In this document: positions 2,477 to 29,291 of the stretch, in pieces | Numbering within the stretch: position 1 is the first letter of the stretch | How the letters are laid out: every line of letters starts with the position of its first letter | Origin: a virus | IMG/VR virus record: IMGVR_UViG_3300014502_000103 | Location: 1 to 29,291 of that record | Length of the DNA: 29,291 nucleotides | Reading direction: 5' to 3' (one strand) | Notes under the pieces: model-generated | What the model was told of the DNA's origin: nothing | What the model saw: the letters and a program-made list of their open reading frames with translations, nothing else | Databases searched by the model: none | Made by a program: the position numbers and the translations under genes

Positions 2477-4144
2477 ATGTCTATTAAAACGTGGAAGCCT
2501 ACATCTCGACAATCAGAGTTCCTGAGTTTACCTGATGCTGTATTTGAAGCGTTATATGGTGGAGCTGCGGGTGGTGGTAAGACAGAAACTCTGGAAATGC
2601 TTCCAGTAGTAAAGAAAACCAAATTAGATACTCCTCTATACGAACATCCCCGTTTCAAGATGCTGTATCTCAGGCGAACATTTCCTGAGTTAGACAGTGA
2701 AGTAATTCCTCGTAGTAAAGATATCTACCCTGCATTTGGTTTCCAACCCTACCAAGATCAGAAAAGACGCTGGACACATCCTAGCGGTGCCATTATACAA
2801 TTTGGTCACTGTGAACATGAAAAGGATGTTAAGAAATATGATACAGCCGAATATAACATCATTGCCTTTGACGAAGCAACCAGCTTCACACCCTATCAAT
2901 ACGAATACCTCACCTTCTCTCGTTGTAGATCTTCTTCAGCTGACCTTCCCGCTATTGTGCGTTCCGGAACTAATCCAGGAAACATTGGGCATGGATATTT
3001 CCGAGACAGGTTTGTAAAACCTCACAAACAAGGTGGTGTAATCTTAAAAGAGTCTAGACTTGTAAATGGAATCTCTCAGACTCTTCTACGTTACTATTGC
3101 CCCAGCAAAGCTACAGACAATACGTACTTAATGCAAGCTGATCCAGATTATATTAATCGTCTGAATCGCTTGCCAGAAGCAGAACGTGCTGCTAAGGCAG
3201 ATGGTGATTGGTGGACGTTTAGTGGGCAGGTGTTTGATGATTTCAGAGTAGAACCTTTTCCTGATGAACCAGCTGCTGCGCAACATGTTATAGTACCTTT
3301 TAGAATACCTGATTACTGGCCCAAGTTGATCTCCATAGACTGGGGTTTTGCTGCAATGACCATCTGTGGATGGTATGCAATAAACCCTTGTCCCACTTCT
3401 AATTATCCTGCCAAAATCTACAAATACCGAGAGTACTCCTGCAAGCAAACCAAAATATCAACTTGGGCCAGCGATATTGCCCGCCTTTCGCAAGGTGAGA
3501 CATATTGTGATGTAGTTCTTGATCCCTCAGCATGGGGAGACAAGGGAGATGAATTAAACATTGCAGATCAGTTTTCCTCTATATCAGGACTCATGCCCCG
3601 CAGAGCAGACAACAATAGAATCTCAGGTAAGATCCTGGTACAGGAATTCCTGCGTTGGAAACCTCGCCCACCGAAGTACATTCCGCAAGAAGGATTTGAC
3701 CACGAACTTGCACTTAAGATACGAAGGATTTCAGGGGAGAAGTCTTGGCAGGAATATGTAGACTTATTTACTCCTGATCCTATTGAAGAATTCCTACCTA
3801 AGTTTCAGATCTTTGATATCTGTGAACAGACCATTAAAGCACTACCTCTTTGTGTATATGATAAGAATAGAGTAGAGGATGTTGCTGAGTGGGAAGGTGA
3901 TGATCCTTATGATGAAACTCGTTATGGCCTCAAGGCTTGCCAGAACTATTTAACTGGTGGCTTTGCGGAGCACGAAAGTGCGACGGAGCGGGCTAGGGTT
4001 CTAGCTGAGTTTGAGCAAACTAAGAACGTTAATCACTTCTACAGACAGATGAATACGATTGATGCTAAAGTACTCAATGATGCTGTACAAGTTAAAAAGT
4101 TTCACAGATCAAAATTCATGAGGCAGAGACATGCCAACTTTTGA
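2477..4144 (+). CDS. Terminase large subunit
   Basis: 555 aa. The ATP-driven packaging motor and DNA-cutting enzyme. Visible motifs: Walker A with GGAAGGGKT (residues 28-36), Walker B IIAFDE (128-133), a coupling-type motif SGTNPGN (163-169), then a C-terminal RNase H-like nuclease with Asp in ISIDWG (D288) and VVLDPS (D349) and a late acidic stretch (DDPYDETRYGL) for the third metal ligand. Length and order fit the family well. The start is fixed by the usual beginning (W-x-P-x-x-RQ before the P-loop), yet no Shine-Dalgarno lies ahead of it; a GTGA-loop hairpin does. The 3' end overlaps the next gene by 14 nt. Confidence 0.95.
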   Translation: MSIKTWKPTSRQSEFLSLPDAVFEALYGGAAGGGKTETLEMLPVVKKTKLDTPLYEHPRFKMLYLRRTFPELDSEVIPRSKDIYPAFGFQPYQDQKRRWTHPSGAIIQFGHCEHEKDVKKYDTAEYNIIAFDEATSFTPYQYEYLTFSRCRSSSADLPAIVRSGTNPGNIGHGYFRDRFVKPHKQGGVILKESRLVNGISQTLLRYYCPSKATDNTYLMQADPDYINRLNRLPEAERAAKADGDWWTFSGQVFDDFRVEPFPDEPAAAQHVIVPFRIPDYWPKLISIDWGFAAMTICGWYAINPCPTSNYPAKIYKYREYSCKQTKISTWASDIARLSQGETYCDVVLDPSAWGDKGDELNIADQFSSISGLMPRRADNNRISGKILVQEFLRWKPRPPKYIPQEGFDHELALKIRRISGEKSWQEYVDLFTPDPIEEFLPKFQIFDICEQTIKALPLCVYDKNRVEDVAEWEGDDPYDETRYGLKACQNYLTGGFAEHESATERARVLAEFEQTKNVNHFYRQMNTIDAKVLNDAVQVKKFHRSKFMRQRHANF

Positions 4145-6649: not shown

Positions 6650-8857
6650 ATGCCAATTAAAGACAAACTCGATGACGAACTAATAGCCTCTCTCAAAGAT
6701 ATAGTAAAGTCTTGCGAACAGGAAGACAAAGAAATTCGTAAGGCTATGATACGCTCTTGGAAAAAGGCAGAGGAGTTTTGGCATGGTGTCCAGTTCTTAT
6801 TCTGGTCCTCTAGAGATGATGGTTGGAAATCCCCTGTAGACATGGGTTATGAGGATGATGAAGAACTTGATGAAGAACTTGGTAGCTTTTCTGATAAGGT
6901 TATTGATATTTACAAAGCTCATGGTGAGAGCATTATATCAGCTCTATCGGCTCAAGTACCTTCACTTAGATTCTTACCTGATGACGCTGATAGTCCTGAG
7001 GATACCCTTACCGCAAGAACTTACAACAAAGTCGCGGATGTCGTGCAGCGACATAATAAAGCTAAACTGGTATTTCTCAGGGCATTATTCTTCCTAGCTA
7101 ATCAGGGAATTGTTGCTAGCTATAGATACAAAGATTCTGACCCTTCTTACGGAACATATAAGGTTCCTGTATATGGGGAAAAAGAAGTTGAGTCTATTTC
7201 TTATACTTGTGTAGAGTGTGGCTATGCTTCTGAGAACCTAGAAACACCCTGCCCACAATGCGGAAGCATAGAGCCACCAAAAGAAACTAAGACCAAAAAC
7301 AAAGTACCAGAATTACAATCGGTCGAAGACAGACCAAAGACTCGTGTTAAACTAGATATCTTTGGTGCTCTTCATTTTAAAGTTTCGTACTACGCACGTA
7401 ACCAAGCAGAGTGTTCCTATCTTGGATTGTTCCTAGATCAAGGAAAAGATATTGCCTGTGAAACTTATCCTGATCTGTGTGAAGAAATTCAAGGAGATAC
7501 TATTGAGAATCTTGATAGATTCTCACGTGCTGCTTACGTGTTTCCTTCTGAAGAGGAAGTAGAAAGAAAAAACTTAGTTGCTGTAAGTAAGTGGTGGCTT
7601 CGTCCAGCGGCTTTCTATCGTGAACCTTCTAAAGAGAAAAGGGAAAAGTTGCTTAAACTTTTTCCAGATGGTTGTAGAGTTATCTTCATTGGTAAACAGA
7701 AGCATTTTGCTGAAGCAATATCTGAGAAGTTAGATGATCGCTGGGAGATTGGTCAAGCAGGTCTTAGCACTTATATATACAGTGATGCTATCCTAAGGCC
7801 GTTAATTCAAATTCAAGAGATGAGGAATCAGCTTGTTAACCTCATCATGGAAACTATTGAACATGCAATCCCTGCTGAGTTTGCTAGGCCCGATGTACTT
7901 AACTTTGCCGAATATGGAAAGTATGAAGCAGTTCCAGGATATACTTACAAAGCTATGCCTGGGCGCCCCGGAGATAAACTTGCTGATGGATTCTATACAT
8001 CCACAAGATCTACACTTAGCAAAGAAGTAAGTGCATTCTTGCATCAGTTAGATCAAGATGCACAGTTTGCTATTGGTTCCTTTCCCAGCATTTATGGTGG
8101 ACCTTCTGAGGGAAAGAGTCGAACCTTTGCAGAATATGCTGCCTCTAGACAGATGGCTCTCCAGCGACTTTCGATCGTATGGCAACTTGTCACAGACTGG
8201 TGGATGCGTACTATATCAGGATCAGTTCTACTATATGTAGATTCACTAGTTGAAGATGAGAAGTATACAAAGTTTGAATCTGGAAGTTATGTAAATGTTT
8301 GGCTAAAGAAGTCTCAGATGCTGGGTAAGATAGGTGGTGTGGAGCCTGAAGCATCTGAGAGTTTTCCAACTAGCTTAACACAAAAGAAAGATTTGTTCAT
8401 GAAGTTAATTGAGATGAACAATGAGTTTGTTAATGCTGCTTTGTATGCTCCTGAGAATGCTCGTACTATTCAGGATGTAATGGCTCTTACTGAATTAAAG
8501 TTGCCTGGTGAAGCACAGCGTGTTAAACAGGTAATTGAAATTCATGAGATGATGAAGGATGATATTATTGCTGTTCATACAGGTCAACTTGACCCAATGA
8601 CAGGACAGGAGATTGTACAAACCTCAATACCTATTGATCCTGATGTAGATGACCACGTAGTTCATATGTCTACCTTGCAATCATTCATGGTAGATCTACC
8701 GGGGTTGGATGTTGCTGCTGAACATCCTGAACAGTATGAGAACATGCGTGCTCACTATAAAGCACATGAACAAGCTCAAGCAATGAAGACAATGCAGATG
8801 AATGCAACACAGCCTGGAGTTGCACCAGAAACAGCACATGCAGGAGTTGAGGAATAA
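6650..8857 (+). CDS. Portal protein with zinc-ribbon insert
   Basis: 735 aa. The portal is the dodecameric ring through which DNA enters and leaves the head. Size, place after the terminase and before scaffold and capsid, an acidic helical N-terminus with W residues (FWHGVQFLFW near 43-52) and a Gln/Ala-rich, Met-rich helical C-terminus (barrel-type, QAMKTMQMNA) all fit podovirus portals. Residues 187-204 carry CVEC and CPQC, a zinc ribbon inserted between the N-terminal helical part and the rest; this is not part of the usual portal fold. The ATG has no normal ribosome site and follows the masked extended site at 6569-6627. Confidence 0.85.
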   Translation: MPIKDKLDDELIASLKDIVKSCEQEDKEIRKAMIRSWKKAEEFWHGVQFLFWSSRDDGWKSPVDMGYEDDEELDEELGSFSDKVIDIYKAHGESIISALSAQVPSLRFLPDDADSPEDTLTARTYNKVADVVQRHNKAKLVFLRALFFLANQGIVASYRYKDSDPSYGTYKVPVYGEKEVESISYTCVECGYASENLETPCPQCGSIEPPKETKTKNKVPELQSVEDRPKTRVKLDIFGALHFKVSYYARNQAECSYLGLFLDQGKDIACETYPDLCEEIQGDTIENLDRFSRAAYVFPSEEEVERKNLVAVSKWWLRPAAFYREPSKEKREKLLKLFPDGCRVIFIGKQKHFAEAISEKLDDRWEIGQAGLSTYIYSDAILRPLIQIQEMRNQLVNLIMETIEHAIPAEFARPDVLNFAEYGKYEAVPGYTYKAMPGRPGDKLADGFYTSTRSTLSKEVSAFLHQLDQDAQFAIGSFPSIYGGPSEGKSRTFAEYAASRQMALQRLSIVWQLVTDWWMRTISGSVLLYVDSLVEDEKYTKFESGSYVNVWLKKSQMLGKIGGVEPEASESFPTSLTQKKDLFMKLIEMNNEFVNAALYAPENARTIQDVMALTELKLPGEAQRVKQVIEIHEMMKDDIIAVHTGQLDPMTGQEIVQTSIPIDPDVDDHVVHMSTLQSFMVDLPGLDVAAEHPEQYENMRAHYKAHEQAQAMKTMQMNATQPGVAPETAHAGVEE

Positions 8858-8860
8858 CTT

Positions 8861-9175
8861 ATGACTAGATCTTATACATTTACTTTGACAAGTGTTGGAA
8901 AGGCTTATAATTTGTGGACTGATTTGATTCTTCCAACGCTAATTGATCCACAATTCAGTAGTAATACTCCTTATGTTCCGAGTAATGTACAGGAATTAAC
9001 TATTCAAAATCAAACTGGTGCTTCTGCACTTACTTGGGGTACTATGATACTTAGTACAGCAGCTGGTTCTATTTATACTAAACGTGCTTCAGTTAATAGT
9101 ATTGATTTGAAAAAAGAAACACTTAATCCTGGGGCTAACCCAATGACTGTAGTTGTTAGTATTATAGCAAATTAA
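8861..9175 (+). CDS. Small beta-rich structural protein
   Basis: 104 aa; GAGG 8 nt before the ATG, 3 nt after the portal stop. Composition is Thr/Ser/Asn-rich with strand pattern (YTFTLTSVGKAYNLW, then VQELTIQNQTGASALTWG and a closing TVVVSIIAN). Small proteins with an LTIQN-x-TG core next to portal or capsid genes often are decoration or head-vertex proteins, or report on virion surface; here it is inference. Its stop overlaps the next start (TAATG). Confidence 0.6.
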   Translation: MTRSYTFTLTSVGKAYNLWTDLILPTLIDPQFSSNTPYVPSNVQELTIQNQTGASALTWGTMILSTAAGSIYTKRASVNSIDLKKETLNPGANPMTVVVSIIAN

Positions 9176-10449
9176 TGAAATTCTTGATGTATTCACAATG
9201 CGGGGAGGGTTCTCAAATTCTACAAAGGATTCAGTCAGAAGGAAATGACTGTGCATTGTTCATTAAGGATAAAATATATAAGACCATCTTTGATGGTATC
9301 TTAGAGAAGACAGACAATCCAGAATCCTTCATAGACAAAGATACTACTATAATCTTTGATATGTCTGGTAATGGGTCCTATGCAGACTCCCTTAGACGTA
9401 AAGGACATTATGTTTGGGGAGCGTCTTCATTTGCTGATGACTTGGAGCATGACAGACAGTTTGGCTTTGATGCTATGAATGATGCTGGCATCATAATTCC
9501 AGAACATAAAGAGTTTAAATCTTTCAAGGATGGTTTGGACTATGTTAAACAGTCTGAACAAAGGCTTGTGTTTAAACCTTCGGGAAGTATGCCTTGCAAA
9601 CTAACTTACTGTTCTCATGATTCTGAAGAACTCTTAGCTTACATGCCTTTCGTAGAGCAGCATTTTGGTAAGGGCATTGATTCTTTTATTTTGCAAGACT
9701 TCATTGAGGGTGTCGTAGTATCCTCCGAAGTATTTTCGCTGGGAGATAAAGGTTTCATTGCTCCTTATAATCATACAGTTGAAGTTAAGAAGTCAATGAA
9801 TAATGAACTTGGCCCTAGTACTGGATGTTCAGGTAACATTGTTTGGGTTTGTGAGAATGACAGAATAATTAAAGAAGGTCTCTCAAAAATCGAAGCTTTG
9901 TGCAAGAAACATGATTACGTTGGTCCTATAGATCTAAACACTGTGGTAAACGCAGTTGGCGTTTACGGGCTTGAGTGGACTCCTAGATTTGGTTACGATG
10001 CAACACCAACTCTATTATATGGACTTACAGAAGACTTTGGTAAGATCTTCTCAGATTTAGCTAGAAAGCAATGTTCTGAACTTTCTTTAATTAATGGGTA
10101 CATTGGTGGAATAAGGTTATCCATTCCTCCTTATCCTGCTGAACCAAAGCAAGGTATAGACTCTGAGAAGTTTTCTCCTAATAAGGGAGTACCAATTCAG
10201 AATTGGGAAGCCCATGAAGCAAATCTATTTTTCTATGAGGTTTGTGTTTCTGAGAATCAAGAACTTTGTCATAGTGGTGGTACTGGAGTTATAGCTTGTG
10301 CTATTGGGGAAGGAGATACACCAGAGAAAAGTTTAGAACTACCTGAAAAGATCTTGGAAGATATCATTCTTCCTGATAAGCAGTACAGAACAGACTTAGC
10401 AACTATTCTACCTAAATTGGTAAAGGAAGCAGAAAATCATGGCAACTAA
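9175..10449 (+). CDS. ATP-grasp ligase (PurD/GARS-like)
   Basis: 424 aa. ATP-grasp enzymes join a carboxylate to an amine using ATP. The layout follows phosphoribosylamine-glycine ligase: an N-terminal domain with DMSGNGSYADSLRRKG (62-77) and GASSFADDLEHDR, then the ATP-grasp part with VFKPSGS (132-138), LQDFIEGVVVSSEVF (173-187) and LEWTPRFGYD (266-275), corresponding to the metal-binding EFNARFGD of PurD with Thr in place of Asn. It lies between portal and scaffold genes, overlapping both neighbours, so it is made with the head proteins. No other purine gene is near, so a virion-protein or peptide modification role is as likely as purine synthesis. Fold is fairly sure, substrate unknown. 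Confidence 0.75.
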   Translation: MKFLMYSQCGEGSQILQRIQSEGNDCALFIKDKIYKTIFDGILEKTDNPESFIDKDTTIIFDMSGNGSYADSLRRKGHYVWGASSFADDLEHDRQFGFDAMNDAGIIIPEHKEFKSFKDGLDYVKQSEQRLVFKPSGSMPCKLTYCSHDSEELLAYMPFVEQHFGKGIDSFILQDFIEGVVVSSEVFSLGDKGFIAPYNHTVEVKKSMNNELGPSTGCSGNIVWVCENDRIIKEGLSKIEALCKKHDYVGPIDLNTVVNAVGVYGLEWTPRFGYDATPTLLYGLTEDFGKIFSDLARKQCSELSLINGYIGGIRLSIPPYPAEPKQGIDSEKFSPNKGVPIQNWEAHEANLFFYEVCVSENQELCHSGGTGVIACAIGEGDTPEKSLELPEKILEDIILPDKQYRTDLATILPKLVKEAENHGN

Positions 10450-11695
10450 CGTTGAAGGCTCTGTGGTTCCAACGGCCACTGGTGTGAACAATCTAAGCAC
10501 AGCAGATGGACCAAAATATAATGATGATGCAAATCTTCTAGATGACACTACTGAAGATAGTAGTGATGATAAAGAAATTGTAGAAGAGACTGTAGATGAT
10601 GAAGGCAATCCTATAGTTTCGGACAAAGAAGAAGATACCGAGAATACAGAAGATGAAGACACGGAAAAGGATACTGAGGAAGAGTCAGATAAAGAGAAAC
10701 CACAAATTCCTTTTGACCGGCCCAGCATTTCTGAGATCCGTGCCAAGTATCCAGATTTCTTCAAGGATTTTCCTGCACTCAAGGAAAGTTACTTTAGGGA
10801 AATTAAGTTTACTCAACTCTTCCCAACTATTGAGGATGCTCAGGAAGCCTTCAATGATAATGAAGCCTTTAATACCTTATCTGACTCCGCGCTTAGCGGA
10901 GATCCTGCGCCATTACTAGAGAGTATTGGTAAGACGGATGTTAAGGCACTAGAAACATTCTCTCTATCTTTCCTGCCTACTATCTTCAAGAAAGATAGTG
11001 CTTTATACTCAACTGTGATTACACCAGTATTTCAGAATCTAGTACAGCAGATGTTTAGGGATAAAGATGAGAATACTCAAAATGCTGCTCTAGTTCTAGC
11101 AGATTGGATCTTCGGTGAAGATGGTAAAGATGTTGCTCAAGGTAAGAAGTCTGTTGCTAAGAGTATCATTCCTTCTGAAGAACAGAAGAAGATTAAAGAT
11201 CAGAAAGAACAACAATCTTCTGTTGCATTCAGAACTAGTGTAGGGCATGTGGAACAGACTATAGAACAGGGACTAACATCTCTTATCTTAAAAAGTCCTG
11301 CATTTGACCCTGATAAAGTGTTTTCTCCCTCATTACGTCGTATGGGAGCACAAGAAATTATTAAGAAAATCAATGCCCAAATGCAGGCAGATCAAGGGCA
11401 TATGACAGTGATGGCTGCTCGATGGAAACGAGCAAGAGCAAACGGGTATACTGCTACTGAGGAAGGCAAGATTGTCTCCGCGTACCTTGCGCGCGCAAAG
11501 TCGCTAATTCCCGGAGCTGCTAGTAAAGTAAGTGCTGCTATGCTTGGAACTAAGAAAGCAGCTGCAATAGTTAAGGGTGTTAGGACTGCTCCTGCACCTA
11601 AACAGAATAACTCAGGAAGGTCTGGGTCAGAGAGAAATGGCAAAATTCAATTAGACTATAGCAAGATGTCTGACTTAGATATCCTTAACAACTAA
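10439..11695 (+). CDS. Scaffold protein
   Basis: 418 aa; start overlaps the ATP-grasp gene by 11 nt, with GGAAG upstream. Residues about 26-88 are extremely acidic (runs of D, E and T), the middle is helical, and the C-terminal third is basic and Ala-rich (KRARANGYTATEEGKIVSAYLARAKSL, then GTKKAAAIVKG). An acidic, flexible N-terminus with a basic C-terminal helix that contacts the coat protein is the standard design of podovirus scaffolds, and the gene directly precedes the major capsid gene. It would shape the procapsid and leave before packaging. No protease domain is seen. Confidence 0.75.
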   Translation: MATNVEGSVVPTATGVNNLSTADGPKYNDDANLLDDTTEDSSDDKEIVEETVDDEGNPIVSDKEEDTENTEDEDTEKDTEEESDKEKPQIPFDRPSISEIRAKYPDFFKDFPALKESYFREIKFTQLFPTIEDAQEAFNDNEAFNTLSDSALSGDPAPLLESIGKTDVKALETFSLSFLPTIFKKDSALYSTVITPVFQNLVQQMFRDKDENTQNAALVLADWIFGEDGKDVAQGKKSVAKSIIPSEEQKKIKDQKEQQSSVAFRTSVGHVEQTIEQGLTSLILKSPAFDPDKVFSPSLRRMGAQEIIKKINAQMQADQGHMTVMAARWKRARANGYTATEEGKIVSAYLARAKSLIPGAASKVSAAMLGTKKAAAIVKGVRTAPAPKQNNSGRSGSERNGKIQLDYSKMSDLDILNN

Positions 11696-11724: not shown

Positions 11725-13005
11725 ATGTTCCCAACTGGTGGTAGCCGTGGTACGATGGCAGCGGAATTGGAACGAGTAGAACCCAAGATTCCAATTCTCT
11801 TTGAACGAGATGATGTGTTTTACAGTAAGATTGAGAAACGACCTGGTGAGATAGTTTCCGAGATCTCTATGAGAATGCCTCTAGAGATTCATCCTTCTGC
11901 TGTAGTTGGTCAGTTCAGCTCAGATGGTGGTGATCTGGGACTTGGTAACATGCCTGATTATGATAAGGCAGAGATCAACACAGTAGAAATCAAGATTGGT
12001 ATGCAGTGGACCAGTCGTAGAAAGTATGCCACGGATTCTGCTCGTAAAGCAGTTCTTAATACTTTCCGACGGGATCTTGCCTCTGCTATGGCAGAGTTTC
12101 GTCGTGCAAATGACTCTCTATGTATGACTGCTGGTAATGGTGTCCTTGGAATCATTACTACAGTATCCAACATAGGCGGGGTCGGAGGAACCGACACGTA
12201 CACTTTAACCACTGATGGTTTTGGTGCAAGATTGCTTCGCATGAAGCAGCCTTTCTCTGTTTGGGACCCAACCCTTACAGTACTCAGAAATGTTGGAACT
12301 CTGGCTGGAGAACTTGTTGTCTCCTACATTGATGTGCCCAATAAAGTTATCCAGGCTACCAACTCTCCTAACAATGTTCAGCCTGGTGATCTTATTGTGT
12401 TCTCTGGCAACTGGATTTCTCCTCCAGCATCTTTGCTTGGTATCCCTTATCATGCCAACAATTCTACTGTTGGTTCTTGGCTTGGGTTTAACCGAGCAAC
12501 TACTCCCGAAATCAGAGCTAATCGTGTTCAGGCTGGTGGTTCGTTAGCTCTAGCTATGCCACGCCTTGCTATTAACAAGATTGGTGATCGTCTTGGTATT
12601 AACAAGCGTAAGAAGCTTAGTGCTTGTATGCATCCTTGTCAGAAGCAACAGTATGAAGAACTTGGATTTGAAGCATCTATCATCAATAAGGATGCTAAAG
12701 AGCAGGGTCTTGATCTGTACTTCAATGACAACATGCGTATGGCTGGTGCTCCTGTGTGGGAGAGCTTCTCTTGGGATAAAACTCGTATTGACTTCATTGA
12801 CTACGATATTTGGGGTCGTGCAGAGTTCTATGCTCCTGGCTGGTATAAGGATGAAAATGGTCAGCGCTACTTTATTATGCGTGGTACTTCTGGTGGTGTA
12901 GCTACCAGTAATCTTGCATACATTACGGCAGCGTGGAACCTTTATCCTAATAACCCCGCGGGTATCAGCTATATTGATACTCTCACGGTGCCCTCTGGCT
13001 ATTAA
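11725..13005 (+). CDS. Major capsid protein
   Basis: 426 aa with AGGAGA before the ATG. Position after scaffold and directly before a terminator, size, and composition (few Cys, balanced charge, long helix near residues 95-125 with RRKYATDSARKAVLNTFRRDL, and beta-rich later parts such as VVSYIDVPNKVIQAT) fit an HK97-fold coat protein. It begins MFPTGGSRGTMAAELERVE, a short N-terminal arm. The C-terminal region has FYAPGWYKDENGQRYFIMRGTSGG. I do not see close identity with a named coat family. No cleaved delta domain is evident, in line with a separate scaffold gene. Confidence 0.85.
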   Translation: MFPTGGSRGTMAAELERVEPKIPILFERDDVFYSKIEKRPGEIVSEISMRMPLEIHPSAVVGQFSSDGGDLGLGNMPDYDKAEINTVEIKIGMQWTSRRKYATDSARKAVLNTFRRDLASAMAEFRRANDSLCMTAGNGVLGIITTVSNIGGVGGTDTYTLTTDGFGARLLRMKQPFSVWDPTLTVLRNVGTLAGELVVSYIDVPNKVIQATNSPNNVQPGDLIVFSGNWISPPASLLGIPYHANNSTVGSWLGFNRATTPEIRANRVQAGGSLALAMPRLAINKIGDRLGINKRKKLSACMHPCQKQQYEELGFEASIINKDAKEQGLDLYFNDNMRMAGAPVWESFSWDKTRIDFIDYDIWGRAEFYAPGWYKDENGQRYFIMRGTSGGVATSNLAYITAAWNLYPNNPAGISYIDTLTVPSGY

Positions 13006-15243: not shown

Positions 15244-16158
15244 ATGGCACAGGCATTAGTAGCATTGAAGTCCGCTAGAACCTACCTTGGAGATACTAAT
15301 GGTATTTCTTGGCCAGATCATGTACTAATGCCTATGCTTCAAGAGGCTCATGGAGAACTAGTTCAGGAATGTGAGAGATTCTCTTTATCTGTAATTATGA
15401 ATCAATCTACAATAATTACAGTAAATGCTGGTGAGTTAACTCTAGGTACTAATCAGCCAGCAACTTTGGTTGAACCAATTACAATAATGGAGCGTGTTCC
15501 TGGTACGGATATGGAAAATTTTCAACCTATGCTTAGGTTGACATTTATTCCCTTACAGGATCAGGATCAAGATTTAAAATACTGGGCTTGGTTAGGTCAA
15601 GTAATTACCTTCTTGGGTGCTACTCAAAGTAGAGAAGTTCTACTTAGATATAAAGGATCTATAGCAACTCCAACAATGCTTACAGCTCCTTTAGGATTCA
15701 TCTTTGCTGAGAGGTATATTGGCCCAAGAATAGCATCCATAGCTTGGGATTCTATTGGTAGAGATGGATCTAAATTTCAACAACTTGCAGAAAATAATCT
15801 TTATAAGATTATTCAATCAAATGTAACTAATGATCAACGGCCTGTAAGACGAAAAGCATACAGATCTTCTAAGGATTTTTATGGTCCTGAAGGTGTATCC
15901 ACTCCTATAGGATTTACTGGAGGCACTACTGTGGCTGCTGTTTGGGTACCTACATCAACCCCTCCTGATGGTATCAGGACTGGATTTTTATTTACAAGTT
16001 TACCAAAATGGGTTAGTTGGAATGGTATAAATCAATTTAGTGGAGCTGGTTACACAATAACAGTCTCCTCTGGTGGATATACAATAACATTTATTGATGT
16101 TTATGGTAATATTCTAACTCCTGGAGTAACCGATGACATTAGGGCACAAATTATATAG
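15244..16158 (+). CDS. Head-tail adaptor protein, copy 2, with C-terminal extension
   Basis: 304 aa. Residues 1-200 follow copy 1 step by step: ARTYLGDTNGISWPDHVLMP for ARTYLNDDASQQFPDPVLIP, YWAWLGQVITFLGATQSREV for FWCWQQEIIVLAGATVNRAV, and ERYIGPRIASIAWDSIG for ESYLAARAAAIAAGTVG. The last 90 residues are extra and beta-rich (WVSWNGINQFSGAGYTITVS, then YTITFIDVYGNILTPG), resembling a small Ig-like or fibre-contact domain. The gene overlaps the tailspike start by 26 nt. A fair guess is that copy 2 forms the site where spikes attach; this is inference. Confidence 0.7.
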   Translation: MAQALVALKSARTYLGDTNGISWPDHVLMPMLQEAHGELVQECERFSLSVIMNQSTIITVNAGELTLGTNQPATLVEPITIMERVPGTDMENFQPMLRLTFIPLQDQDQDLKYWAWLGQVITFLGATQSREVLLRYKGSIATPTMLTAPLGFIFAERYIGPRIASIAWDSIGRDGSKFQQLAENNLYKIIQSNVTNDQRPVRRKAYRSSKDFYGPEGVSTPIGFTGGTTVAAVWVPTSTPPDGIRTGFLFTSLPKWVSWNGINQFSGAGYTITVSSGGYTITFIDVYGNILTPGVTDDIRAQII

Positions 16159-17848
16159 TTTCTTATTACTTGCTAATACTGCTTTCTCGCAGCAAGTGGA
16201 TTGGGTTAATAATATCAAGAACAAACCTGTTTTTGATGTGCGGCAGTATGGAGCTGATTCTACAGGAGTTAAATCATCCACAGCGGCTTGCAACGCGGCG
16301 GCAACGGCAGCAGCGTCAGCAAAGCATGGTGTTGTATTGTTCCCATCTGGAACCTATAAGATGACCGATGCCTGCATAGGAACGGGAACGATCACATTCA
16401 TGGGGCCAGGAGTTCTGCTTGTTCCACCGAGCTTCAATCTATCAGCTATCGGAGTTATCGTTTTGATGTACGCCCAGGATACTGACTGCACCGCGACCAG
16501 TGGCCTTTGTCCAGGATCACCTAAAGTTGACCTACACATTCGATTTCAGAATACCGACACGGCAATATACGGCTCGCTGATTGCCTTTCCTCCAGCAATT
16601 GCATGCGGAGACTTCTATGGATGCTCTTATGCTAACATTGATGCTACGATCACGCAGGCAATGACAGGCATTCAGATTAAACCCACAAACTTTCCGGCCT
16701 CATGGAATGGAAGTACCACTTATACGCTTGGGGAGTTTGTTCAATCGGCAGGGCAGACATGGCGAAGCCTTCAAGTAACCAACTTTAATCACACACCTGC
16801 TAGTTCGCCATCTTGGTGGACTTATGTTCCCGTGGGAGTTGGCGTGCATCTCGGACAGATTAAAGTCTCCGCGTTCGATTTTGGAGTCATTTTGGATGGT
16901 TCCGATTCAGAAATGACCATGGACAACTACCACTGTTTTCCATGGGACACGACGGCAAACCAAGGGGCAATATATCCGCTTCATGGAACTTGTCTATATG
17001 CGGCTGCACTTTATGAGCTTAACATCAGCCAGTTCACTGCAAGTAACTTCTGGCGGTCTATGAGTATAACCTACGATGGAGCTATTAGAACACAATGTCC
17101 TGATGTCAATATTGGAGCGTACATCGTTGATACCTACGGTGGAACGGACGTTAGTTGTGGGAATCTCAATGTAGGATCAGCAACGGTGAAAATGGCTGAT
17201 ACTCCCACGACGGCTTATTACTTCTTGAACCTATACTCAACTGGTTCTGCTTTCATCTCAAATATGCAGTTCACGCATGTGCCTGATCCAACAACAGTTC
17301 AGGTGTACAAAATCACGAATAGTGGGGGGAGACTTCAGATTGTCAATAGCAATTTCTACATGGCAGTCAACGGGCAAGCATCGAAGGCTCTTGTCTTCAA
17401 TGGCGCTGGTGGTACAATGACGTTTAATGGGAACCAAATTTTCCTGAGTGGAGCAGGATTCAATTTCGCGTCTGGCGCTCCATTGTTTGCTCAAGCCGGA
17501 TCGTCGTCGGTCTTTACCAATAATTTCTTCAGCCCTATTGGCACGTCTAGTAACGGGGGAATCTACTTTGAACCATTGGCAGATAGCTTAGGGAATTGGG
17601 TGTCTAGTAATGTGATGAACGGCTGGCCGCTTACTAAACCAACATATCAGAGTTTGGGTATTTATCAAACAGAGGGGGTTATATGCCCAACTCTATCTGC
17701 TTTGGGAACTCCAGCTAACGGAAGAATGTCCTGTTGCTTAGATTGCAAAAATTATGTAGATGACTCTGTTACTGTTGGTGCTAATTGTGTTAGTGGGGGT
17801 CATGGAGCTACTGCTACCCGTATAAATGGTACTTGGAGATGTTATTAA
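16133..17848 (+). CDS. Tailspike with pectate-lyase-like beta-helix
   Basis: 571 aa. Residues 25-45 (NNIKNKPVFDVRQYGADSTG) open a right-handed beta-helix of the pectate lyase superfamily; the following FPSGTYKMTDAC and GPGVLLVPP are typical first rungs. Residues 189-230 (WNGSTTYTLGEFVQ, then TWRSL and SWW) resemble a CBM5/12-type chitin-binding module inserted in the helix. The last 55 residues (CLDCKN, VDDSVTVGANCVSGGHGAT, NGTWRCY) are a C-terminal cap I know from phage and bacterial secreted proteins. GGAG lies 6 nt before the ATG. The N-terminus MTLGHKLYSFLLLANTAFSQ looks like a signal peptide, odd for a virion protein. GC content is clearly higher than in flanking genes. Expected role: binding and cutting host surface polysaccharide. 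Confidence 0.8.
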   Translation: MTLGHKLYSFLLLANTAFSQQVDWVNNIKNKPVFDVRQYGADSTGVKSSTAACNAAATAAASAKHGVVLFPSGTYKMTDACIGTGTITFMGPGVLLVPPSFNLSAIGVIVLMYAQDTDCTATSGLCPGSPKVDLHIRFQNTDTAIYGSLIAFPPAIACGDFYGCSYANIDATITQAMTGIQIKPTNFPASWNGSTTYTLGEFVQSAGQTWRSLQVTNFNHTPASSPSWWTYVPVGVGVHLGQIKVSAFDFGVILDGSDSEMTMDNYHCFPWDTTANQGAIYPLHGTCLYAAALYELNISQFTASNFWRSMSITYDGAIRTQCPDVNIGAYIVDTYGGTDVSCGNLNVGSATVKMADTPTTAYYFLNLYSTGSAFISNMQFTHVPDPTTVQVYKITNSGGRLQIVNSNFYMAVNGQASKALVFNGAGGTMTFNGNQIFLSGAGFNFASGAPLFAQAGSSSVFTNNFFSPIGTSSNGGIYFEPLADSLGNWVSSNVMNGWPLTKPTYQSLGIYQTEGVICPTLSALGTPANGRMSCCLDCKNYVDDSVTVGANCVSGGHGATATRINGTWRCY

Positions 17849-20064: not shown

Positions 20065-20601
20065 ATGATAAACTTCAAACCTTTTCAAAACCTGTATCAG
20101 CAAGTTAAAGCTAAAGATATGCGCCTTTTTGAGGCACTAGATAGTATTAGTACTTATTTGCAGAAAATTGGTACCTTTGCTGACTCTCTTCTGGATGCCC
20201 GAGGAAATTTAAAATTTCTTCAAAGCAGTAATTTACAAATACCAAATAGACTTATTAAGGTTACTTCCCCAAATATCATTGGGTTAAGTGTTCTATTGGA
20301 TGATGGAATCACAGTTACAATACCAATACTGTTAAGTGTACTAGCCAATATTAACACTACAGGAGTTTATAAAGTTGCTGGTACTCAAGTAGTAGGGGCT
20401 CAGTTAGCTGCTATTACTGTTCCTAGTATGAATACATCCAATACAATATCAACTGCTGGAGTTCTTTATACTGCTACAGAACAAGGAATGATAAATACTT
20501 ACAAAACAGCAATAGGCCAACTTAACACTGACGTTGGGCTTTTAGTTACAGCTGTTAATGATATTGTTACAAGACTACATGCACATGGTTTAGTTGCCTA
20601 A
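20065..20601 (+). CDS. Fibre-like or tail-associated protein
   Basis: 178 aa, weak ribosome site (AGGG 9 nt upstream). Residues 1-45 are a helix (LYQQVKAKDMRLFEALDSIST, then YLQKIG) as in trimeric fibre stems. Residues 46-120 are beta-rich. Residues 145-178 form a second helix (QGMINTYKTAIGQLNTDVGL, then VTAVNDIVTRLHAHG). Helix-beta-helix layout and place after the nozzle suggest a small fibre or nozzle-associated trimer. No family named. Confidence 0.6.
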   Translation: MINFKPFQNLYQQVKAKDMRLFEALDSISTYLQKIGTFADSLLDARGNLKFLQSSNLQIPNRLIKVTSPNIIGLSVLLDDGITVTIPILLSVLANINTTGVYKVAGTQVVGAQLAAITVPSMNTSNTISTAGVLYTATEQGMINTYKTAIGQLNTDVGLLVTAVNDIVTRLHAHGLVA

Positions 20602-20602
20602 T

Positions 20603-20968
20603 ATGATAATTACAAACAGTATTAATCTAGAAGAAATGAAAGCTATTCATGATGAGTCTTTTCCTCTCCCAGATCTATCTAATAGATTATATATATGCAG
20701 AAAAACAGCTGTTGACGCTGGTAAGATTGTTGCTATTGGGCTAGTTCGTTTGACAGCTGAGGGTATCTTGATTACTAATCAAGAACTTCCTAAATCTACA
20801 CGTGCCAGAGCAAGTGCTGTTCTAATAGAACAGTTAAAGCAAGAGACAAAAACACATGGGCTTGATGAGTGTCATGTGTTTGTTAAAAATGCTGGTGTTC
20901 AACAGTTTCTTGAGCACCTTGGATTTAAACCCTGTCAGGGTGGTAAAGCACTGGTAATTCACTTTTAA
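20603..20968 (+). CDS. GNAT-like N-acetyltransferase fold protein
   Basis: 121 aa from ATG 20603; a TTG at 20594 is possible but overlaps the upstream gene. The pattern follows the GNAT fold: helix-rich start (INLEEMKAIHDESFPLPD), strands with KIVAIGLVRLTAEG, a helix where acetyl-CoA would bind (TRARASAVLIEQLKQETKT), then ECHVFVKN and the closing FLEHLGFKPCQGGKALVI, which is the most recognisable part. The usual Q/R-x-x-G-x-G/A pyrophosphate loop is not clear (TRARAS instead), so activity is uncertain. GNAT-like proteins do occur in podovirus structural modules; the role there is not known to me. Confidence 0.65.
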   Translation: MIITNSINLEEMKAIHDESFPLPDLSNRLYICRKTAVDAGKIVAIGLVRLTAEGILITNQELPKSTRARASAVLIEQLKQETKTHGLDECHVFVKNAGVQQFLEHLGFKPCQGGKALVIHF

Positions 20969-28255: not shown

Positions 28256-28415
28256 TTTTGTTCTCATTTGAAATTTGTGGCCCAAATTGTGCTGTCCTAA
28301 GAACATTCTTCCATGCTATCCGTACTAAGTCAGGAAGTTGATCCCAGGGTAAGTAATGATTAGGGGAAACTTCTTTAGCAAATTGTTCATACAATATCTG
28401 TTCTAGTGGTTTCAT
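28236..28415 (-). CDS. Small protein between polymerase and DUF3987 genes
   Basis: 59 aa, missed by length filters. ATG 28415 overlaps the polymerase stop (ATGA), with a perfect AAGGAGG 5 nt upstream, one of the best ribosome sites on this strand. Starts MKPLEQILYEQFAKEVSPNH and continues YLPWDQLPDLVRIAWKNVLR, a helical, amphipathic sequence with a charged end. The gene overlaps the start of the next gene by 20 nt if that begins at 28255. No family recognised; operon position suggests a replication accessory role. Confidence 0.7.
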   Translation of the reverse strand: MKPLEQILYEQFAKEVSPNHYLPWDQLPDLVRIAWKNVLRTAQFGPQISNENKNDNRII

Positions 28416-29290
28416 ACTACCTCCTTAAAGATGTATTTTGTCATACCATCAGGATAAGTGCCAGATTTATCAATCCACCGTCTACCTATTTTAAGATCAA
28501 TAGGTATAACAAGGTCATAATCACGGTTAAGAGTACAGCATCTGAAATTGATTGGTTGTTCCATCTCTTCCTTAATAATTCTGGCAGCCAAATCAACAAG
28601 ATAATCACGGCATAAAGCAAGAAAACTGTCATGCGATTCCTCCACAAAGAAAAAGTCTTTCATGTATTTATCACTTAAGCGTTGTACAATGCGAATCATT
28701 GCAAACTTCACTTGGTCACTGATCGTAGATTGAGGTATATAAGCATATGCCTCTTTAAAGAGTTCATCTCCCCACCTATTAAAGAACTGTCGTTCTCTTC
28801 CAAAAGGTGTAACTAATCTACAATCATTATCCTGTAATGCCTGTTGAATATCTAAATGAAACACCCCTTTTATATTGGGGTTATTTTCGTGAAACTTTAT
28901 GAGCTGTTTACCTGATGCAAATTCAGAAATATATATACCAGCAAATTTGGCTAGATTTAACATGTGCATGTGCTTTTGCATACTATAATTACCTGCATGT
29001 CTAGTCTTTTTGCCTGCTTGTCTGTCATAGTCTGTAATATCTTCAAATAGTTTACCACAAACATACACAGCAGTCATTGTATGTCTATCATCTTTAAGAC
29101 CATATTTATTCTTCTTAAAAACTGTTCTCTCATAGTCTTTAAGTGCTTGCCAATCTTTTGCAAGTACACAAACTACTCTATCTTCTGCCTGAGATAAGTC
29201 TGGTTCTAGGAACACAAATCCAGGGTCAGCAATGAACATAGCACGAAGATCAGCACCCCCAGCACCTGTTAACTGAGCATCTTCATGCTT
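28412..29290 (-). CDS. Family A DNA polymerase, C-terminal part (partial at window edge)
   Basis: 292 codons seen; the frame is open to the window edge, so the N-terminal domains lie outside. An ATG at 29239 is internal, not the start, since the codons before it encode HEDAQLTGAGGADLRAMF, the usual lead-in to motif A. Motif A: EPDLSQAEDRVV with catalytic Asp. Motif B: RQAGKKTRHAGNYSMQKH, with the R...K...Y residues of the O-helix (Asn before Tyr). Motif C: EESHDSFLAL, with the second catalytic Asp and Ser where Pol I has Glu, as in many phage polymerases. It is the replicative polymerase. The stop overlaps the next small gene's ATG. Confidence 0.9.
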   Translation of the reverse strand, partial: KHEDAQLTGAGGADLRAMFIADPGFVFLEPDLSQAEDRVVCVLAKDWQALKDYERTVFKKNKYGLKDDRHTMTAVYVCGKLFEDITDYDRQAGKKTRHAGNYSMQKHMHMLNLAKFAGIYISEFASGKQLIKFHENNPNIKGVFHLDIQQALQDNDCRLVTPFGRERQFFNRWGDELFKEAYAYIPQSTISDQVKFAMIRIVQRLSDKYMKDFFFVEESHDSFLALCRDYLVDLAARIIKEEMEQPINFRCCTLNRDYDLVIPIDLKIGRRWIDKSGTYPDGMTKYIFKEVV

Positions 29291-29291
29291 A

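Follow-up and report, generated by a model that had tools for sequence, protein, structure and literature searches.

PurD is a textbook purine enzyme, and the phage protein described here shares with it (TIGR00877; PDB 2YW2, 2QK4, 1GSO) the whole fold, the ATP-grasp lysine, the E...R metal/catalytic residues, the T-G loop and a C-terminal R-x-D motif. Unlike PurD, to which it is about 18% identical, the phage ligase lacks GGREHA, PGN, PExPL and GDPE, has Thr for Asn at the metal site, carries the new invariant residues D253 and N255, and is not accompanied by a purine pathway. PurK, PurT and biotin carboxylase belong to the same superfamily and have the same domain plan, but are further from the ligase than PurD in both sequence and structure. 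Another phage-borne ATP-grasp clade, of the R2K/RimK type, has already been proposed in print to modify proteins (PMC4431377, PMC7824862); in contrast to that clade, the folds nearest to our ligase are those of PurD, and a Pfam search at E 0.1 gave no RimK/R2K-type ATP-grasp match. RimK itself offers a precedent for a ligase with a dedicated protease: RimB, a retropepsin-like aspartic protease, trims the polyglutamate of a ribosomal protein and also has a stimulating effect on RimK (PMC11957791). The partner gene reported below, HEL, differs from RimB in that its product is a possibly zincin-like HExxE protein.

The window, i.e., the whole stretch of viral DNA that was analyzed (29,291 nucleotides), appears to be part of a longer tailed-phage genome; related genomes measure about 45 kb, which would leave some 15 kb outside the window. 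Its relevant genes are given below, where the labels portal, scaffold and capsid were assigned from position, size and conserved order; among the structural and packaging genes, only the terminase large subunit (TerL) had a strong family match.

2477-4144, plus strand: terminase large subunit (PHROGs phrog_979, E=4e-37)
6650-8857, plus strand: portal-like protein, 735 aa, assigned from position and conserved order, without a family match
8861-9175, plus strand: ORF of 104 aa with no assigned function, between the portal-like gene and the ligase, with a 1-nt overlap with the ligase
9175-10449, plus strand: PurD-like ATP-grasp ligase, 424 aa (Pfam GARS_A, AlphaFold2 model, VIA-align to PurD structures)
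10439-11695, plus strand: putative scaffold, 418 aa, with an acidic N-terminus and an 11-nt overlap with the ligase (position, conserved order)
11725-13005, plus strand: putative major capsid protein, 426 aa (position)
28412-29291, minus strand: fragment of a DNA polymerase A gene truncated by the window edge (comparison of syntenic relatives)

The ATG of the ligase and the stop of the preceding ORF have one base in common, and the ligase stop falls 11 nt within the next ORF (ATG at 10439). The first-pass annotation had described a PurD-like ATP-grasp ORF with overlaps at both ends, which we confirmed; it had also placed this gene between portal and scaffold, and here the overlap with the putative scaffold stands, but the 104-aa ORF, which has relatives in three other loci (L013, L053, L059), separates the ligase from the portal-like gene. 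No second PurD-like match was found in the window, and a profile of the capsid protein had no match in PDB. Other late genes include a GNAT-like ORF at 20594-20968 (phrog_1249 acetyltransferase, E 0.005), and a tail-spike-like protein with an N-terminus similar to a Sec signal peptide is encoded at 16133-17848 (phrog_2234, E 5e-5).

The ligase matched Pfam GARS_A (E=1.6e-7) and the NCBIfam purD model (E=1e-17 across 341 positions), in the latter case with about 64 bits (63.2-64.1) against a curated score cut-off of 288 bits for TIGR00877. An AlphaFold2 model, built from an alignment of 68 relatives, had a pLDDT of 95.6 and a pTM of 0.93 and contained the full PurD (GARS) fold with its N, A, B and C domains. 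We compared this model with known structures, as the first-pass annotation had advised: the top PDB matches were all PurD (VIA-align Z 31-36 over 378-397 residues, model residues 1-418), followed by PurT, PurK and biotin carboxylase (Z about 24-25), and RimK was absent among the PDB matches listed. Similarly, a profile search of PDB sequences gave 1e-29 to 1e-44 for PurD and 5e-4 or worse for all others. Because both structural and PDB-sequence profile matches are best to PurD, the ligase is assigned by model and sequence comparison to the PurD branch, and descent from RimK appears unlikely.

Residue conservation was analyzed in 68 diverse phage relatives versus 12 bacterial PurD sequences. 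In the phage relatives 21 positions are invariant which, together with the pLDDT of the model, shows that neither the ORF nor the family is a product of chance. The main motifs, taken from the alignment of the 68 relatives (for the T-G loop, from the alignment with PurD), are the following.

9445-9456, plus strand: E91...R94, invariant (E102...K105 in PurD)
9574-9576, plus strand: K134, the invariant ATP-binding lysine (K145 in PurD)
9781-9789, plus strand: E203-x-K205, invariant (D214 and K216 in PurD)
9811-9834, plus strand: loop G213-x-x-T-G-x-x-G220, retained from GPNTGGMG of PurD
9931-9939, plus strand: D253-x-N255, invariant (Tyr/Phe and Gly in PurD)
9973-9999, plus strand: metal-site motif EWTPRFGYD, residues 267-275, with E267-x-T269-x-R271 (Thr in 68/68)
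10387-10395, plus strand: R405-x-D407, invariant C-terminal motif common to PurD

Thus, K134, E267, R271, K205, the T-G loop and the C-terminal R-x-D are retained from PurD. On the other hand, G7, G9, R11, E12, H13, A14, P32 and G33, which are invariant in the 12 PurD proteins, are not kept in the 68 phage proteins; the N-domain motifs GGREHA and PGN are gone from the phage family, and D293, P294 and E295 of PurD (GDPE) are not kept as a motif. The first-pass annotation had pointed out that EWTPRFGYD lacks the Asn of PurD, and indeed PurD Asn288 is replaced with Thr in every one of the 68 relatives. However, PurK (E-x-A-P-R) and PurT (E-x-S-P-R) are likewise without Asn at this motif, and therefore the replacement alone does not imply a new reaction. 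D253 and N255, the new invariant residues, lie on the strand that precedes the metal-site motif. The metal site seems to have been reshaped without being lost, since in many other ATP-grasp enzymes this strand bears a metal-binding acid. The catalytic set K134, E267, D253 and R271 is invariant in 68/68. Judging from these residues, the ligase is probably an active ATP-grasp enzyme, as E-x-T-x-R is invariant and D253, K134, E203 and K205 are kept. Two ligase genes (G053, G077) each have a single in-frame stop (TGA and TAG, respectively) and are otherwise intact, which may reflect a pseudogene, a sequencing error or recoding.

A phylogenetic tree, obtained by a short search with SH-aLRT support and no bootstrap, separated 93 phage proteins from 11 PurD proteins by a long branch with 100% SH-aLRT, so that the phylogeny suggested by the first-pass annotation places the ligase outside PurD. 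In addition, PurF and PurN were sought in 38 phage records and neither was detected, while the controls were positive in 12 and 14 of 14 genomes. The sub-cut-off score, the lost PurD residues, the position in the tree and the absence of PurF and PurN together give good support, at the sequence level, to the view that the ligase is a PurD-derived enzyme that is no longer PurD, and synthesis of GAR appears very unlikely.

The genes adjoining the ligase differ among phages. Window-type phages have the gene series portal, small ORFs, ligase, scaffold, capsid, with the ligase immediately upstream of the putative scaffold in 16/17 relatives. Related large phages (117-132 kb) have the series terminase, HEL, ligase, portal, scaffold, capsid. 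In group 0, the largest ligase group, the ligase is the final gene of a rightward operon and follows a protein of 500-1500 aa, mostly with a 4-nt overlap; a Pfam GNAT-containing cluster also recurs there in 29/59 loci, mostly 4-6 genes upstream of the ligase. In other lineages the ligase separates terminase from portal, follows internal proteins, or precedes a tail-fibre-like protein that has BNR and GDSL domains. The late operon is thus constant across lineages and the adjoining gene variable.

As a control, a scan with the capsid protein of the window lineage yielded 80 loci with capsids 49-84% identical. The ligase was present in 20 of these and in none of the other 60, in which portal and scaffold mostly abut or nearly so; no copy elsewhere was found when 20 near-complete ligase-negative contigs were searched. 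The same portal-scaffold junction (window 8857-10439 and loci L272-L351) holds unrelated cargo, often large proteins with signal-peptide-like N-termini. One cargo gene codes for a collagen-like GPTGPQGATG protein (L301:2361-3140). Since 60/80 related-capsid loci are without the ligase and unrelated cargo occupies the same site, the junction is an accessory-gene hot spot and the ligase is optional cargo there; consequently, the positional argument for a role in the head loses much of its force. On the capsid tree, ligase presence requires four changes, and the carriers are clustered. The first-pass annotation had suggested that the ligase may be a head gene whose product modifies a capsid, portal or scaffold protein, and had recommended a survey of neighbours; this survey, in which the adjoining gene differs by lineage and the junction takes unrelated cargo, weakens the suggestion, as does the fact that HEL belongs to a replication operon in the lineage of the window itself. 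We also considered the capsid C-terminus as an acceptor, but rejected it, as the ...GY end seen in ligase-positive relatives also occurs in 60/60 ligase-negative ones. Ubiquitin-like tagging was rejected as well: the protein called "ubiquitin" in phage genome MW202796 looks like a zinc-ribbon-like protein rich in Cys, and a search for recurrent GG tails gave none.

When the neighbours of the ligase were clustered across lineages, one recurrent gene emerged, coding for a protein of about 128 aa, which we named HEL. Its invariant residues are Q17-R-Y, H52-E-x-x-E56, D74, E82, P90-Y, H95 and E102. No other recurrent pathway gene was found beside the ligase. HEL was then used in a scan independent of the ligase, from which the best 80 of 230 loci were taken and reduced to 63 by dereplication at 80%. 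A ligase-family gene was present in the 6-kb flanks of 42/63 loci; it was on the same strand within 1 kb in 36/63, with many 4-nt overlaps, and was the immediate neighbour of HEL in 25/63. A whole-contig search of the remaining 21 loci detected a ligase elsewhere in 16, which brings the total to 58/63 dereplicated HEL contigs; four of the five without it are 32 kb or shorter and one is 43 kb. Some of these partners fall into a second ligase clade, which is very divergent, has the motif D-x-T/C-x-R and lacks the T-G loop. HEL therefore occurs near-obligately together with the ligase family, and this linkage is our main new finding. The reverse does not hold, since HEL was absent from all 24 group-0 ligase records tested and was not seen in the window; the ligase does not universally require it.

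HEL had no match in Pfam, NCBIfam or PADLOC, and only chance-level matches in PHROGs and among PDB sequences. Its model (pLDDT 95.1) was most similar to structures that are mostly HExxH zincins, i.e., IrrE, PprI, CapP, SprT-type, BepA, BlaR1 and Wss1, with IrrE (3DTI), CapP (7T5T) and SprT-type (6MDX) on top in a second look. However, the best Z was 5.0, no Foldseek E was under 0.001, no sequence family matched, and the invariant motif of HEL is HExxE, the zincin HExxH being absent. We therefore regard a zincin-like nature of HEL, which this model suggests, as a lead and not a result.

In the window lineage HEL is not beside the ligase but belongs to the replication operon, where it is mostly flanked by a ParB-N6/N4 methyltransferase gene on one side and a UDG-DNA polymerase A fusion on the other; in one such fusion (L360:3877-6324, minus strand) the UDG domain is N-terminally fused to the family A polymerase (Pfam UDG 1.4e-27, DNA_pol_A 6.8e-29). 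In most syntenic relatives HEL is directly upstream of the polymerase gene, and the window ends in this gene, short of the expected HEL position; by synteny, HEL would be found about 1.6 kb beyond the window edge. Among contigs of this lineage of at least 34 kb, HEL was present in 7/11 ligase-positive and 0/20 ligase-negative ones (Fisher 1.3e-4), a contrast that on its own is weak, because the 11 and 20 contigs are not independent and shared ancestry on the capsid tree leaves only 3 independent pairs. The neighbouring methyltransferase served as a negative control and occurred in 9/11 and 12/20 contigs, respectively; overall, it was near HEL in 4/82 HEL loci. The ParB-methyltransferase was therefore rejected as a third component.

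Taken together, these data make it fairly probable that the protein is a PurD-derived ATP-grasp ligase of uncultured tailed phages which forms, with HEL, an accessory two-gene amide-ligase system. In this system, the ligase would probably use ATP to convert a carboxylate, either small or terminal, into an acyl phosphate, which would then be joined to an amine to give an amide. With less weight, HEL may be a metal enzyme of the zincin-like type that acts on the substrate of the ligase by preparing or trimming it, so that the two proteins would constitute one modification system. Being optional cargo in late structural operons, the ligase need not act on the virion. As for its substrate, we favour a protein or peptide over a small metabolite, but this is a guess, which we would put slightly below even. 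More tentatively, the ligase and the HExxE metalloprotein might be a previously undescribed pair, mobile between phage lineages and genome modules, that targets a protein or peptide: the ligase would attach an amide-linked group which the metalloprotein either prepares beforehand or trims.

Several other functions were weighed against this two-gene system. It is conceivable, if rather unlikely, that the ligase is an auxiliary or counter-defence enzyme which makes or repairs, in the infected cell, an amide-linked metabolite such as an aminosugar, nucleotide or polyamine conjugate. PurD, PurK and PurT, the nearest folds, all use small molecules, the entire N-domain and the T-G loop are retained, and the distribution is accessory and patchy; however, the N-domain motifs GGREHA and PGN of PurD are lost and HEL is the only recurring gene beside the ligase that could represent a pathway, while the lack of a PADLOC defence-family match says little on counter-defence. 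A virion-protein ligase that adds a residue or peptide at assembly, the acceptor being a protein of the capsid, scaffold, portal, ejection or tail type, as the first-pass annotation envisaged for the head, would account for a gene that lies in or ends late structural operons in the lineages examined, is often translationally coupled to a structural gene and, in 16/17 relatives, is coupled to the putative scaffold. We consider it improbable, given that the neighbour varies by lineage, most phages with related capsids do without the gene, its insertion site accepts unrelated cargo, the capsid C-terminus is identical with or without the ligase, and HEL is in the replication operon of the window lineage.

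The position of HEL in window-type phages, mostly between the ParB-methyltransferase and DNA polymerase genes, raises the question of DNA hypermodification, with the ligase amidating a modified base in concert with this methyltransferase. The methyltransferase is found with and without the ligase and is seldom close to HEL, and thus appears to be background; this function is very improbable. Least credible of all is a divergent GAR synthetase that raises the purine supply of the host: full-length homology and fold would agree with it, but the score is under the curated cut-off, PurD-invariant residues are lost, the clade lies outside PurD, and PurF and PurN were absent from the 38 records examined. 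The non-purine role that the first-pass annotation had inferred is thereby supported, and the two-gene amide-ligase system remains the reading we prefer.

Relatives of the ligase were detected by an alignment-based scan of IMG/VR viral contigs, in at least 544 loci; with the window protein as a single query the scan found no relatives, and alignment queries were needed. The carriers include many uncultured soil and freshwater phages, and the distribution is phage-specific. In bacterial assemblies, six contigs had members, five from MAGs and one from Paraburkholderia phenoliruptrix LMG 22037, and all six look like phage. PHROGs, NCBIfam and PADLOC gave the ligase no name beyond a weak PurD match, and no account of the ligase family or of the ligase-HEL pair was found in the openly licensed literature. 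What appeared to be an isolated odd gene is thus a widespread, testable pair: besides the ligase loci, public viral contigs contain about 230 loci of HEL, and cultured phages have almost none of either. A phage branch that keeps the catalytic chemistry of PurD without its substrate motifs would show recruitment of housekeeping ligases, and the HEL partner provides an immediate handle on the reaction.

Other matches in the phage collection were rejected as members because they are apparently bacterial PurD, that is, host DNA in phage records: L002 is surrounded by genes of bacterial type and, like L169-L172, shares 44-49% identity with E. coli PurD. Several records of the sets H4-H27 and H29-H37, labelled as phage and derived from human faecal and wastewater clones, likewise seem to contain ordinary bacterial PurD and are probable host contamination. 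Fusions of the ligase to upstream proteins (L149, L141, L139) were judged to be artefacts, as the frames are long, the DNA is GC-rich and the N-termini do not resemble one another. Among 50,697 phage records the sole member was MW202796 (L001), a metagenomic genome from Manatee Spring in which the ligase gene is unannotated. The head module of this genome also contains, two genes past a portal-type gene, an annotated GroES-like 10-kDa chaperonin (1618-1953).
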